A stretch of 64,000 nucleotides of DNA from Aquirufa ecclesiirivi (GTDB lineage Bacteria > Bacteroidota > Bacteroidia > Cytophagales > Spirosomataceae). Positions 53,786-59,362 of this stretch are shown here, one piece after another. A program made the translations under genes and the position numbers. The stretch spans positions 372,001-436,000 of the forward strand of contig NZ_JAANOP010000001.1 of NCBI RefSeq assembly GCF_011250515.1. The letters are read 5' to 3'. The notes under the pieces were generated by a model that saw only the letters and a list, made by a program, of their open reading frames with translations, was not told the DNA's origin and did no database searches. Position 1 is the stretch's first letter. Each line of letters starts with the position of its first letter.

Positions 53786-54814
53786 CTAGGGCATTTTAGT
53801 TTGACTAAATCCAAGCACTTTATTCCAAACGCCTTCATCCACTGGGATGCCCCATTGCATATTTTCTGCTCTTGTTTTAAGAGATCTTTCTCCAGGATAA
53901 TTCACTTCTCCTCCTGTTGTAACTGGAGTAGAGTTTCTTAATTGAGTGATGGTGTGTTCTAGAGCTTGATCTAAGAATGCTTGATCATTGATTTTTAAGG
54001 GGTCAATCGCGATAAATACTTGAGAGCATCCTCCACAAGCGCCTTGCCCAACCAAATCAATATCGGCAGTGGTTCTACCTTTGGAAAGTATCGCAGAAAA
54101 TAAATCCAACATAATGGCCAATCCAGATCCTTTCCAATATCCTGTTGGTAAAATTCTACGGGTAGCTTCAATCGGAGCAGGCTCATCCGTCAGTTTTCCT
54201 TCTTGATCAAATCCACCAGGAAATGGGAGTTTTTCATTTTTTAAGCGAGTCGTTTCTAATTTTCCATAGGAATATTGCGACATGGCCATATCAAAAACCA
54301 CATGACCGCCCTGTCGCGGAATGGCCATAATGAAAGGATTATTCCCGATCCCTCCGGATGTGGCACCCCAGGCGGGCATGCAAGATTCTGTATTGGTCCA
54401 GCAGATGGCCATAAAACCTTTATCGGCAGCTTGCCAGCCATAAGAGCCTCCTCGCATCCAATGCGTGGTATTATTTAGAGCTACAAGGCCCAATCCATAT
54501 TGCTTAGCGATGTCCATCGCCCTATCCATCGCGAAGATGGAGTTGGTAATGCCTATGCCCATATTTCCATTGTATATTTCTATAGAGCCAAGATTCAAAT
54601 CTAATGTAGGTTCTGCATGCACATCCACCCAGCCTTTGGATACAAAATCTAAAAATCGTTCTACTCGGTTTAAACCATGGGAATATACCCCATCCCGACT
54701 AGTTTCTGCATGTGTTTTAGCACAAATTATGGCTTTTTCTTCCGGTAATCCTGCCAATAAAAATGCTTGTTTTATGGTCTCGACCATGACGTCGAAGGCA
54801 ATTCTTTTCATCAT
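53786..54814 (-). CDS. Ldh-family (malate/L-lactate/diketogulonate) dehydrogenase
   Basis: A 342-residue NAD(P)-dependent oxidoreductase of the YiaK/DlgD type: ETIKQAFLLAGLPEEKAIICAKTHAETSRDGVYSHGLNRVERFLDFV at the start, GLGLVALNNTTHWMRGGSYGWQAADKGFMAICWTNTESCMPAWGATSGGIGNNPFIMAIPR (the substrate region), LPTGYWKGSGLAIMLDLFSAILS near the end. ATG at 54814 is chosen; longer frames run into the repeat array. It converges with the AEC gene and is divergent from the GH78 gene, with the REP-like array between, hinting at rhamnose or uronate metabolism (inference). Confidence 0.9.
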   Translation of the reverse strand: MMKRIAFDVMVETIKQAFLLAGLPEEKAIICAKTHAETSRDGVYSHGLNRVERFLDFVSKGWVDVHAEPTLDLNLGSIEIYNGNMGIGITNSIFAMDRAMDIAKQYGLGLVALNNTTHWMRGGSYGWQAADKGFMAICWTNTESCMPAWGATSGGIGNNPFIMAIPRQGGHVVFDMAMSQYSYGKLETTRLKNEKLPFPGGFDQEGKLTDEPAPIEATRRILPTGYWKGSGLAIMLDLFSAILSKGRTTADIDLVGQGACGGCSQVFIAIDPLKINDQAFLDQALEHTITQLRNSTPVTTGGEVNYPGERSLKTRAENMQWGIPVDEGVWNKVLGFSQTKMP

Positions 54815-54990
54815 AAATAGTTTGAAGGTTAAAGATAGAGAAAGATGTGCTAATAGTGAAGGTGGCTTCGAGAACCTCAGCCAGCATGGGGAGAGTGTCT
54901 CAGCCATCTTCGAGAGAGAACTTCAACTACCAAGGAGCGAGAGCCTCAGCCACCATCGAGAGAGCGTCTCAACCACCATCGAGAACCTCA

Positions 54991-55146
54991 GCTAGCATCT
55001 AGGGCCTCAGCCACCGAGGATATAGATCTTCAGCCAGCAAGATTTGGGATTGAATATAGAATGAATTAGGTGGCTTCGAGAGCCTCAGCCACCGAGGAGA
55101 TAGATCTTCAGCCAGTATGTTTTGGAATGGAATATAGTAGTAATTA
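54991..55146. repeat. two tandem 78-bp units in the left half of the array
   Basis: 54991-55068 and 55069-55146 match at about 64 of 78 bases without gaps (counted by eye); a third unit starts at 55147. Each holds one REP-like palindrome and a shared AGATCTTCAGCCAG spacer. Confidence 0.8.
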
Positions 55147-55278
55147 GGTGGCTTCGAGAGCCTCAGCCACCCTTGAGAACCTCAGCCACCTTCGGGAGCA
55201 TCATTCTCTATCAAAGAAAACTTCGTATCTACTAGTATAATGTTGGCCTTGGCTCTTGAAGCCACGTACAATTATTTA

Positions 55279-55550
55279 GGTGGCTGAGGTTCTCGAAGCC
55301 ACCGTATAATAAGGCCCACGAAGCCAACATATTTGGTGAGTGAATATACTATTGAAAAGGTGGCTGAGGCTCTCGAAGCCATGCACTATTATTTAGTTAG
55401 CTGTGATTTCTGAAGGTGGCTGAGGTTCTCGAAGCCACCGTATAATAAGGCTCTCGAAGCCAGCATAATTGGAGAGTGAATATATTATTGAAAAGGTGGC
55501 TGAGGTTCTCGAAGCCACACACTATTATTTATTTAGCTGTGGTTTCCGAA
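55279..55550. repeat. two tandem 136-bp units in the right half of the array
   Basis: 55279-55414 and 55415-55550 match at about 124 of 136 bases without gaps (counted by eye). Each holds two full REP-like palindromes, a partial one and a shared spacer with GTATAATAAGG and AGCTGTG. A third, truncated copy begins at 55554. Confidence 0.85.
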
Positions 55551-55635
55551 GGTGGTGGCTGAGGTTCTCGATGGTGGCTGAGGCTCTCGAAGCCGCCGTA
55601 TAATAAGGTTCTCGAAGCCTCCGTTAATGCCACAC

Positions 55636-55657
55636 TATCCTTACATGCCTAAGGATA
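55636..55657. promoter_or_regulatory. 8-bp dyad at the edge of the array, upstream of GH78
   Basis: TATCCTTA-CATGCC-TAAGGATA is a perfect dyad about 90 bp before the GH78 start; it has no T-tract after it and could be a regulator site. Confidence 0.4.
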
Positions 55658-55744
55658 ATTTTATCGCTTAAAAGAAGACTTTCATCTAAAATAGTTTTAC
55701 AACTCAATGAAAGACATCATATTTAGTGAAAATATCCCTAATTG

Positions 55745-58700
55745 ATGAAAAAACATGTATTATACGTATTATTAAGCTTAATAAGTTTAGTAAATCTGCA
55801 GGCTCAAAATTCCTTGCAACTATTGAAAGTGGAATACCAATCCCAACCCATCGGATTGGATGAACAGCATCCCCGATTTTCTTGGCAAATGCAATCCCAA
55901 GCTAAATCCAGAGGAAATCAACAACAAGCCTATCGCATTGTTGTTCGTGATGCCAAAAACCAAGTGGCCTGGGATAGTAAAAAAGTAAACTCTCCCCTGT
56001 CTTTAGGTATCAATTATGAAGGCTCGGCCTTACAAGCGTCTCAAAAATACCAATGGACTGTTCAGGTTTGGGATCAACAAAATAAAGTAAGTTCGGCTTC
56101 TTCCTGGTTTGAAACAGGATTATTAAATCCTAGTGTGCAAGCATGGAGTGGCGCTGAGTGGATAGGCGAAAATGACTTGCCGCTCTATTCCCATTATTTA
56201 TCCATGTACAAAATCCAATTTGGTATACAGTTGGATGAGGCCTCTAAATCCACGAAAGCATCCTTTGTTTTTGGAGCAAATGACCCTCGATTGCAAAACA
56301 GAAACTTGAATATCATGGATGTGGCCAATGGCCCCAATGCCTCCTACATACAATTGGAATTGGATATTAACCGAGTGGCGGAGTCAGATTCGGGACTGGC
56401 CCAACTAAACGTGTATCGCGTGGGTTACGACAAAAAAGATAGTCCAACTAAGGTTTTTGCTAGTTTTAAAATAGCTAAATCCCTTATTTCTCCAGCAAAC
56501 AAATACCAGAAACACACCATTTTTGCTCAATGTAATTTTGGCGTTTTTGATTTTTACCTAGATCAAGTTGACCCAGCTCACAAAATTAACGCTGCACCTG
56601 CTGGAGCCGCTGCCGCACCTAGAGGAGGCCAATCAGGACTTAACTTGAATCCAGTAGGTAGAGGAAACAACTTTATCAGTTTCCCGATGCTTTCAGAAAT
56701 TGGATTTCAGGTACCAGCCAATCAAAAAGCCTTATTTTCAGGGGTTTTGATTAAAAACTTCCGATTCCCAAGTAATACCTTATTTGATGCAGCTGAAAAT
56801 CCTAGCCTATTTACTCAAAATGGCATTCAGTGGGATGGTAAGCAATTCCAAATTTCGGCTTCTTCAGAAAATGTATTGGTTTGTGCCAATCCAAGCCGAT
56901 TTGCCGCTCCTATGTTACGCACGCAATTTACCAGTGTACCCAATAAAGCCATCAAACAAGCGCGTATTTATTCAACTGCTCGTGGTATTTATGAATTATA
57001 CTTAAATGGTGAGCGAGTAGGAAAAGACTTTTTTAATCCAGGTTTGACGCAATACAATAAAACACATTTGTACCAAACTTATGATGTGACTAAACTCATT
57101 AAATCAGGCGAAAATGCCTGGGGAGCTTGGTTAAGCGAAGGTTGGTGGAGCGGTAATATCACGTTTAGTGGTGATAGCTGGAACTTCTTTGGTGATCGCC
57201 AGTCCTTACTAGCTAAACTCGTGATTCAATACACGGATGGTACGGAACAAATTATTACCACGAATCCAGAAAAATGGACTTATAGCAATGATGGCCCAAT
57301 CCGTTACGGTAGTTTCTTCCAAGGGGAAGTGTATGATGCTCGTAAAGAAGCTGCCATATCTGGCTGGTCTACGGCATCTTTCCAAGCGAAAGGTTGGAAG
57401 CCCGCTTCAAAAATCCCTTTAGAAGGAACGGCCTATGTAGGAGATGTGCCCAATGCTTTGAATTATAAAGATATGAAGCTGGTTGGTCAATTGGATGATG
57501 CCGTTCAAGTGAGAAAAGTGATGCAAGCGAAGTCCATGCATGAGCCAAGAAAAGGCGTTTATGTGTATGATATGGGACAAAATATGGTAGGCTTTCCTAA
57601 AATATTCATTCCCAATGGAAAAGCGGGTCAAACCATTACCTTACGTTTTGCCGAAGTGCTTTACCCTGATTTAGCAGAATATGCTTCGCAAAAAGGGATG
57701 ATCATGTTGGAAAACATCCGTGCGGCATTGGCGCAAGATGTCTATATCTTAAAGGGCGGAGATGAATACATTCAACCACGTTTTACTTTCCATGGCTACC
57801 GTTATTTGGAAATTACGGGATTAGATCAAGCGCCTGCTTTAAGTCAAGTGGCAGGTTTGGTGCTTTCCTCCATTCAGGACATAGGTTCCTACTATGAAAG
57901 CTCTGATCCTTTGGTGAATAAATTGTGGAATAATATCACGTGGTCCATGCGAGGAAACTTCCTTTCCATTCCAACGGATACTCCCGCTAGAAACGAAAGA
58001 ATGGGCTGGAGTGGGGATATCAATGTATTCTCTAAGACGGCAACGTACATGGCTCCCGTGAATAATTTCATGCGCCGTCATTTATTGGCGATGCGGGATG
58101 TGCAACGTGCCGACGGTCGTTTTACTGATGTAGCCCCGATGGGGGGAGGATTTGGGGGAACCTTATGGGGAAGTGCGGGTATCATCATTCCTTGGGAAAC
58201 GTATCAACAATACGGAGATAAGAATATGTTGGTAGAGCATTATGATGCCATGAAACGCTATGTGGCATTTTTGGAAACGAAAGTGGATCCAGCCAATGGC
58301 ATTGTCAATGAAGGTCCATTGGGGGATTGGTTGAGCCCAGAAAATAACAAAAATGACAATACCCTTTTCTGGATGACTTACCAGGCATATAACCTAAAAA
58401 TCATGTCGCAAGTGGCAGGTATTTTAGGAAATAAGTCGGACGAAAGTGCCTACCTTGCCCAATACGAAAGCAAGAAGAAAACAATCAATAGTGTTTACAT
58501 CGACCCAAATACACACAGAACCGTGAAATCAGGAGTAAGAGCAGCGCGTATGGGCCCTCCGGGAGCGGCACCTGCAGCACCTGCCACGCCTCCAGTTTCC
58601 GACAAGGGACAATTGATGGATACGCAGGCATCTTATGCCATTCCTTTGGCATTGGGTGTGATTGATGATAACAATAAACCCTTTGTCTTGAAGCATTTGG

Positions 58701-59362
58701 TGGAAACGGTGCAAAGATCCAACAAAGACGATGAAGGAGTGGCACGCCCTCCTTATTCTTTAATGACCGGATTTATTGGAACGGCCTCCATTGCCGATGC
58801 GCTTTCCAATAACCAGCAGCATGAAGTGGCCTATGCTTTATTAACGCAGAAAACCTATCCTTCTTGGTTGTATTCGGTAGCTAATGGAGCTACGACCATT
58901 TGGGAAAGATTAAACTCTTATACCATTGAAAATGGTTTTGGAGGGAATAATAGCATGAACTCTTTCAATCACTATTCTTTTGGGGCCATTGCGGCATGGA
59001 TGTACCAAACATCTTTGGGAATTCAACGCGATGTAACTTCCCCAGGATTTAAGCACTTCCACTTGCAACCGACACCGGATGTATCGGGTAAAATCAATTT
59101 TGCCAAAGGTTATGTAGAAACCATGTATGGCAAAGTAAGTAGTGAATGGAAAAAAGAAGGGAATGTAATGAGCTATCAATTTACAGTTCCTGCCAATACT
59201 ACGGCACATTTGAAACTTCCGGCTAGTTCGGCCAAGGTGACAGAAGGTGGTCAAGATATAACAAAATCAAAAGGAATTTCAGGTATTAAGCAAGCAGGAA
59301 ATTTCTTGGAAATGGAATTAAACTCAGGATCCTATGAGTTCAAAGTCAGTCCGCTTAACTAG
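55745..59362 (+). CDS. exported alpha-L-rhamnosidase-like enzyme, GH78
   Basis: A 1205-residue protein with signal peptide (KHVLYVLLSLISLVNLQAQ). It has the typical order: N-terminal beta-sandwich domains, a rhamnosidase N domain with ARIYSTARGIYELYLNGERVGKDFFNPGLTQYNKTHLYQTYDVT, and a six-hairpin catalytic barrel with TDTPARNERMGWSGDINVF and LVEHYDAMKRYVAFLETK, TIWERLNSY. It removes terminal alpha-L-rhamnose in the family. Ala/Pro/Gly-rich inserts lie near residues 282 and 936. Some catalytic residues are not verified here. It is preceded by the REP-like array and followed by a terminator. Confidence 0.9.
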   Translation: MKKHVLYVLLSLISLVNLQAQNSLQLLKVEYQSQPIGLDEQHPRFSWQMQSQAKSRGNQQQAYRIVVRDAKNQVAWDSKKVNSPLSLGINYEGSALQASQKYQWTVQVWDQQNKVSSASSWFETGLLNPSVQAWSGAEWIGENDLPLYSHYLSMYKIQFGIQLDEASKSTKASFVFGANDPRLQNRNLNIMDVANGPNASYIQLELDINRVAESDSGLAQLNVYRVGYDKKDSPTKVFASFKIAKSLISPANKYQKHTIFAQCNFGVFDFYLDQVDPAHKINAAPAGAAAAPRGGQSGLNLNPVGRGNNFISFPMLSEIGFQVPANQKALFSGVLIKNFRFPSNTLFDAAENPSLFTQNGIQWDGKQFQISASSENVLVCANPSRFAAPMLRTQFTSVPNKAIKQARIYSTARGIYELYLNGERVGKDFFNPGLTQYNKTHLYQTYDVTKLIKSGENAWGAWLSEGWWSGNITFSGDSWNFFGDRQSLLAKLVIQYTDGTEQIITTNPEKWTYSNDGPIRYGSFFQGEVYDARKEAAISGWSTASFQAKGWKPASKIPLEGTAYVGDVPNALNYKDMKLVGQLDDAVQVRKVMQAKSMHEPRKGVYVYDMGQNMVGFPKIFIPNGKAGQTITLRFAEVLYPDLAEYASQKGMIMLENIRAALAQDVYILKGGDEYIQPRFTFHGYRYLEITGLDQAPALSQVAGLVLSSIQDIGSYYESSDPLVNKLWNNITWSMRGNFLSIPTDTPARNERMGWSGDINVFSKTATYMAPVNNFMRRHLLAMRDVQRADGRFTDVAPMGGGFGGTLWGSAGIIIPWETYQQYGDKNMLVEHYDAMKRYVAFLETKVDPANGIVNEGPLGDWLSPENNKNDNTLFWMTYQAYNLKIMSQVAGILGNKSDESAYLAQYESKKKTINSVYIDPNTHRTVKSGVRAARMGPPGAAPAAPATPPVSDKGQLMDTQASYAIPLALGVIDDNNKPFVLKHLVETVQRSNKDDEGVARPPYSLMTGFIGTASIADALSNNQQHEVAYALLTQKTYPSWLYSVANGATTIWERLNSYTIENGFGGNNSMNSFNHYSFGAIAAWMYQTSLGIQRDVTSPGFKHFHLQPTPDVSGKINFAKGYVETMYGKVSSEWKKEGNVMSYQFTVPANTTAHLKLPASSAKVTEGGQDITKSKGISGIKQAGNFLEMELNSGSYEFKVSPLN

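Follow-up and report, generated by a model that had tools for sequence, protein, structure and literature searches.

A REP-like palindrome array of two opposed halves between divergent genes of Aquirufa, probably derived from a REPIN

Between two genes of Aquirufa ecclesiirivi that are transcribed away from each other lies a dense array of one short palindrome, whose copies read one way in its left half and the other way in its right half. What kind of element is this, how did its two opposed halves arise, and does it serve the genes beside it? The window examined here is a 64-kb stretch of the genome (64,000 nucleotides), and the features at the locus are as follows.

53786..54814, minus strand: left neighbour, 3-dehydro-L-gulonate 2-dehydrogenase (NF009750, 391.5 bits, cut-off 316)
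54861..55622, no strand assigned: REP/REPIN-like array of 17 copies or fragments (pattern matches and tandem-repeat finding)
54861..55204, plus strand: left half of the array, 8 core matches with the core on the plus strand, a 78-bp tandem unit inside
54861..54885, plus strand: 25-mer, 1 mismatch
55069..55093, plus strand: 25-mer, exact
55147..55171, plus strand: 25-mer, exact
55243..55622, minus strand: right half of the array, 9 core matches (11 when 4 mismatches are allowed) with the core on the minus strand, a 136-bp tandem unit inside
55279..55303, minus strand: 25-mer, exact
55359..55383, minus strand: 25-mer, 2 mismatches
55415..55439, minus strand: 25-mer, exact
55495..55519, minus strand: 25-mer, 1 mismatch
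55573..55597, minus strand: 25-mer, 1 mismatch
55634..55673, plus strand: conserved stretch between the array and the rhamnosidase-like gene (CTATCCTTA......TAAGGATAATTTTATCGCTTAAA), recognised by eye
55742..59362, plus strand: right neighbour, alpha-L-rhamnosidase-like (NF041573, 667.7 bits, below the cut-off of 1720)

Transcription of both neighbours is directed away from the array, and the start codon of the dehydrogenase lies about 46 bp from it. The conserved stretch at 55634..55673 was also found, by eye, in L091, L092, L093 and L154, and is probably the control region of the rhamnosidase-like gene itself. By the sequence of this gene, the closest relatives (92-96% identical) are Aquirufa beregesia, A. 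aurantiipilula, A. nivalisilvae and a MAG labelled Cytophagaceae bacterium.

With up to three mismatches allowed, the 15-base core CTTCGAGARCCTCAG matched 17 times between 54840 and 55640 and once in the remainder of the window. Eight matches on the plus strand (54866-55190) were followed by nine on the minus strand (55284-55603), and the strands never interleaved. The claim of the earlier note, that some 17 whole or partial copies of one palindrome fill this stretch and reverse orientation midway, was thus confirmed. Relaxing the limit to four mismatches added two minus-strand copies (55247 and 55309), against seven matches elsewhere in the window. Near-full 25-mers numbered eight in the window, each with 0-2 mismatches under a limit of three, where 100 shuffles gave an expectation of 0. 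Much of the array is made up of two tandem periods, a 78-bp unit in 2.2 copies (55004-55171) and a 136-bp unit in 2.1 copies (55278-55571); shorter, overlapping tandem rows are also present.

The palindrome is not confined to this locus. Searching the window's genome with the 25-mer gave 86 places at up to three mismatches, and the reversed pattern, used as a control, gave none. The copies elsewhere that the earlier note had asked about therefore exist, and the family, here called family A, has the makeup of a REP in that a short imperfect palindrome occurs in 86 copies between genes. Arrays are found at several places in this genome; their periods range from 39 to 55 bp, and their arms include types such as GGTGGC/GCCACC, GTTGGC/GCCAAC and GGTGCC/GGCACC. 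The concentration of copies in the window had been thought unusual, but five other arrays of the same genome are richer (10, 10, 11, 15 and 17 copies against 8, by one uniform count). Orientation switches and tandem expansion, likewise considered exceptional, proved common in the family. Only one of 56 clusters lay wholly within a predicted open reading frame, a frame of 130 codons, in a count that disregards partial overlaps. Array statistics here and below refer to 43 loci fetched around listed matches, a set that leaves aside places such as G000 C35:93715-96697, G000 C26:155280 and G016 C1:17091-17370; counted copies had at least four of six arm positions paired (G-T allowed) and at most one core mismatch. 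At L043 (3450-5800) and L195, other dispersed repeats (GGTTAATCCCAACGAAAGATGGGAACG...) are interleaved with single copies of family A.

Among relatives, the exact 17-mer GCTTCGAGARCCTCAGC was present in five of 99 genomes (the window's own included), all of the genus Aquirufa. A looser pattern with two mismatches separated the same genus into five core-rich genomes, with 29-115 matches, and 33 others with 0-9 (reversed pattern 0-5; 38 genomes in all). In a sample of 390 genomes from the order, 15 contained an exact match to the 15-base core: the five core-rich Aquirufa hold 11-69 copies, G246, G305 and G335 hold 7, 8 and 17, and seven genomes hold a single copy. This core is set in very different arms in G305 and G335 (GTCTAY ... 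TGACT). Two further Aquirufa genomes, G013 and G031, gave 9 and 7 loose core matches (two mismatches; control 0 and 1), which are possibly decayed copies of the family.

The behaviour of core and arms was examined over 200 copies carrying the core TTCG[AG]G[AT][AGT]CCTCA, 154 of them unique, from the 43 array loci in five species. The unit is a REP-like hairpin in which a nearly fixed core, TTCGAGARCCTCA, sits within arms that vary with compensation. Over six arm positions, Watson-Crick pairs made up 784 of 924, as counted over copies that are related to one another, whereas 2000 shuffles of the right arm gave a mean of 668 and a maximum of 694. When the right arm was slid by one or two bases, the number of pairs fell to 113-287. 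The hairpin has thus been maintained through compensatory change, as in REPs, with kinship among the copies left in this count. The conserved feature is the hairpin rather than the exact sequence of its arms. When folded, the 25-mer gives a hairpin with a two-base bulge, equally on both strands. Strand preference was examined in 133 unique copies with at least four of six Watson-Crick positions (21 of the 154 were dropped), and G-T pairs numbered 16 against 11 A-C pairs. In one respect the unit departs from classical REPs: inspection by eye of the bases 5′ of the hairpin found no constant GTAG or GTGG tetranucleotide at its foot, the bases there being variable, and GTGG occurs inside one arm type only.

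Orientation within the arrays is not random. The end copies of 35 multi-copy arrays from the fetched loci were arranged +/- in 18 cases, -/- in 11, +/+ in 6 and -/+ in none. Many of these arrays are orthologous, and 18 to 0 does not represent 18 independent events; since a +/- array reads +/- from either strand, it is nevertheless a true polarity. Spacing showed the same asymmetry, with 76-77 bp separating 11 of 41 adjacent +/- pairs and none of 23 -/+ pairs. A spacing of 76 bp gives a unit of 101 bp, an inverted pair of 25 + 51 + 25 bp. Such units number five, of which G016 has four and the window's genome one; they are 80-97% alike over their whole length and 65-98% in the spacer, the better strand being compared. 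They represent three non-orthologous sites in two species, because two of the four G016 units are adjacent with shared flanks and the unit of the window's genome is orthologous to one of G016. Three 101-bp units of G021 agree with these in length and layout but have other arms or spacers (66-73% identical to the five, spacers 53-65%). Each of two 101-bp units that were folded formed one long hairpin (z -8.4 and -9.4). One species has such a pair at the locus that corresponds to the window's array (L189).

Inverted REPs at a preferred distance, apparently dispersed as a unit, are what distinguishes a REPIN, and judged by its sequence the 101-bp pair has this anatomy. A clean empty site for the dispersed 101-bp copies was not found in another species, the places being rich in repeats. 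The window's genome has, on contig C35, an array in which one plus copy is followed at 76 bp by the first minus copy and then by a run at 48-50 bp, nine minus copies in all; this array is a REPIN with one half multiplied. In the window, the closest full copies across the orientation switch are 132 bp apart, not 76.

To place the array in its history, the same gene boundary was compared across species. An array was present there in all five core-rich species, with 4 to 10 counted copies. The distance between start codons, by arithmetic from matches, was 927 bp in the window; for the other four species it was 589, 942, 668 and 603 bp, one of these values including unreadable bases. A more distant MAG (L095), whose dehydrogenase is 67% identical, has the same two genes about 128 bp apart with no array, and is the one outgroup in which the array-free state was seen. 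The four species and this MAG supply the five loci with the gene pair among the best 80 of 327. In the orientation of the window, the leftmost copy is plus and the rightmost minus in each of the five species (L051, L173, L181, L189 and L194). Flanks of 26 bases on each side of 169 units from six loci were then compared. Their identity was 0.70 within one array and one orientation, 0.515 between opposite orientations of an array, 0.515 for the same locus in different species, 0.505 for different loci in the same genome and 0.503 after shuffling. Because this likeness is confined to a single array and orientation, the arrays grow by local tandem duplication. The content of the array has been renewed within the divergence time of the five species.

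Taken together, these data make it likely that the array is a REPIN-derived cluster that settled between the divergent genes, multiplied its halves in tandem with the hairpin kept, probably owed its past mobility to a Y1 transposase and is now tolerated. The starting element would have been about 100 bp long and made up of an inverted pair of REP-like hairpins (25 + 51 + 25 bp). It would have entered the boundary in the lineage of the five Aquirufa species, as the gene pair without an array in L095 suggests. Left and right halves would then have multiplied separately through local tandem duplication, leaving left copies one way and right copies the other. Local growth is seen in the flank identities; we infer a start from the two halves of one REPIN, and by the pattern on C35 the window array would be such an element with both halves multiplied. 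From established knowledge of REPs, the earlier mobility probably depended on a Y1 (HUH) transposase acting on hairpins in single-stranded DNA. The present array would most likely have no dedicated function at the locus and be tolerated between two promoters.

A RAYT gene was another sign of REP origin proposed in the earlier note, and two nearly identical ones lie about 2 kb apart in the window's genome (L038, 5893-6420 and 8059-8586). One scores 121.5 bits on NF047646 (cut-off 80), and the HUH motif is NHNH in one and NHIH in the other. Neither finding named beforehand as fatal to a REP origin, a genome with no other copies and no RAYT gene or a related strain with the region coding, turned up. 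Three of the five core-rich species have an intact RAYT. The other two retain remnants at the same locus, 90% identical over 249 bp and 83% over 250 bp and with a common end point, and the repeats persist in both:

L187, 1943-2191: RAYT remnant
L174, 3952-4191: RAYT remnant

A family A copy lies within about 250 bp of the RAYT gene or remnant in all five species. However, the palindromes closest to the RAYT belong to a different family, family B (TTCGACATG ... CATGTCGAA). Thus, the suggestion that the array is what RAYT activity left behind stands as to copy number and presence of the enzyme, and is weakened by the direct flanks of the RAYT. The five most similar RAYT loci in the order sample (66-71% identical) showed family B clearly at L262 and L263, variants of it at L261 and L264 and half-sites at L265; the family A core was not found at four of them and occurred once, with two mismatches, at L265. 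Family B is present in six of 38 genus genomes; among these six, G005 lacks both the RAYT and family A. In G305, a RAYT 48% identical (L244) is flanked by five palindromes GTCTACCGYAGGGTGACT. Their arms resemble the core-bearing repeats of that genome, but the loop is short, as if core and loop were exchangeable. Three further related RAYT loci in that genome showed no palindromes of this type, and a loose pattern for them matched twice in the window. RAYT relatives occur in 248 of 390 genomes of the order and are so common that their co-presence with the repeats is weak evidence.

A second candidate enzyme was considered. PF01797 matched in 12 of 38 genus genomes, and the strong matches (E <= 6e-20), to an IS200-like gene, fell in exactly the five core-rich ones; the window's genome has one copy (71.2 bits on NF033573, cut-off 55). 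This co-occurrence was rejected as proof of a cognate enzyme, as the gene occupies one fixed place in the five Aquirufa beside its own palindrome, GCCATGGATTTAAATCCATGGC, and the five may be one clade. On contig C32 (L031, 1480-2450), the gene stands between acetyltransferase-like and bioB-like genes (named by eye), and a tandem array of GCCATGGATTTAAATCCATGGC, with a period of about 94 bp, comes after it in the window's genome. Elsewhere this palindrome has other arms (CCTTGG, CCCTGG).

An extended version of the REPIN reading would make family A an orphan. Its core would be the target of a factor different from the resident RAYT, for instance an unknown Y1 protein or an enzyme of the host that processes hairpins; its arms would be exchangeable wholesale, and it would have fixed hot-spot boundaries that always carry an array and renew their units in each species. 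We regard this extension as doubtful.

Continued presence of the array could instead reflect a maintained boundary, in which the array insulates or coordinates the two divergent promoters, perhaps as a gyrase or nucleoid-protein platform or a supercoil sink, and selection keeps it despite turnover of its units. Its presence in all five species, though the units are no longer alike between them, is consistent with this, as is the plus-to-minus arrangement common to all five. Against it, the same polarity is shared by arrays elsewhere, and the relative L095 manages with no array. Nor do the 56 clusters show a clear preference of context: 19 lay between convergent genes, 18 between divergent and 15 between same-strand genes, with 4 at a locus edge, counts that come from simple ORF calling and stand without the genome's own mix of boundaries as a baseline. 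The window cluster, which is divergent, was itself miscalled as same-strand because the open frame of the dehydrogenase extends into the array. A boundary role is possible, and on this evidence we think selection for one an unlikely explanation of the array.

Repeated independent insertion of the mobile unit into a single hot spot, in place of tandem duplication, would account for the occupation of the same place in five species with different content. However, adjacent copies have spacers in common, recurring with a regular period, only inside a given array (the period is 39-55 bp in many arrays and 78 or 136 bp in that of the window). This is the pattern that tandem duplication gives, and repeated insertion is accordingly improbable.

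It is very improbable that the repeats act as terminators or as RNA hairpins in the mRNAs of neighbouring genes: a lone core hairpin between convergent genes in a different genus (G246, L230, 1979-2016), with AAAA before and TTTT after, does look like a two-way terminator, and 54600-55900 holds four terminator-like matches, two of them within the array, against 1.0 in shuffles, but both neighbours are transcribed away, leaving the array at their 5′ sides, its full copies have no T-runs by eye, the RNA folds of its halves are weak to moderate, and G-T and A-C pairs (16 to 11) single out neither strand. A terminator role was set aside, the excess of matches (4 vs 1.0) giving it weak support. Promoter-like matches in the same interval numbered 6 against 2.8 in shuffles. 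The left half, folded as the plus strand, was no better than shuffles (z -0.93), and the right half was moderately better (z -2.42 on the plus strand, -2.25 on the minus strand); these values lend little to the earlier idea of stacked RNA hairpins. No Rfam family matched in the 64-kb window at gathering score.

The preferred reading, a REPIN-derived cluster grown by tandem duplication, has close parallels. The REPs of Pseudomonas fluorescens SBW25 (Bertels and Rainey 2011, PMC3116915) are likewise multi-copy and extragenic with compensatory hairpin changes, and form inverted pairs at a preferred spacing (REPINs) and ordered tandem clusters; the largest REPIN cluster there exceeds 700 bp, and two REP arrays have 12 members. 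Each of the three SBW25 REP groups has a cluster beside one of three RAYTs, whereas the Aquirufa RAYT is adjoined by another family, and in Aquirufa the core is long and the arms change freely. In Quentin et al. (2018, PMC6006769), TnpA_REP subclass 2.6 of Bacteroidetes is described as having 'atypical secondary structures', which like the Aquirufa palindromes have no GTAG foot, and is tabulated with 179 aa, NH[LIV]H, WQ and YIH[QN]NP. The Aquirufa RAYT, from a Bacteroidetes host, has 175 aa, NHIH and WQ, while its third motif is YIHLNP; its placement in subclass 2.6 was made by eye from these motifs. The GTAG and CGTC families of Di Nocera et al. (2013, PMC3733652) are similar as palindromes of 20-40 bp with sub-families of alternative complementary stems, grouped elements and inverted-unit dimers that include heterodimers with different stems. 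Unlike these, the Aquirufa palindromes have no constant GTAG or CGTC terminus.

Five core strings of 14-19 bases appeared in no paper found by a literature search whose scope excluded most subscription papers and all preprints, and among the matches listed no Aquirufa paper concerned repeats by its title. The family is a new REP-like family of a kind already known from REPINs, tandem REP clusters, stem sub-families and Bacteroidetes RAYTs with atypical palindromes. To that kind it adds a family in which the rules of change visibly differ between core and arms. In two of the five host species the RAYT gene has been lost while the repeats persist. With one boundary in five species carrying 4 to 10 copies, and a relative free of the array, the locus offers a natural series for how REP arrays arise.
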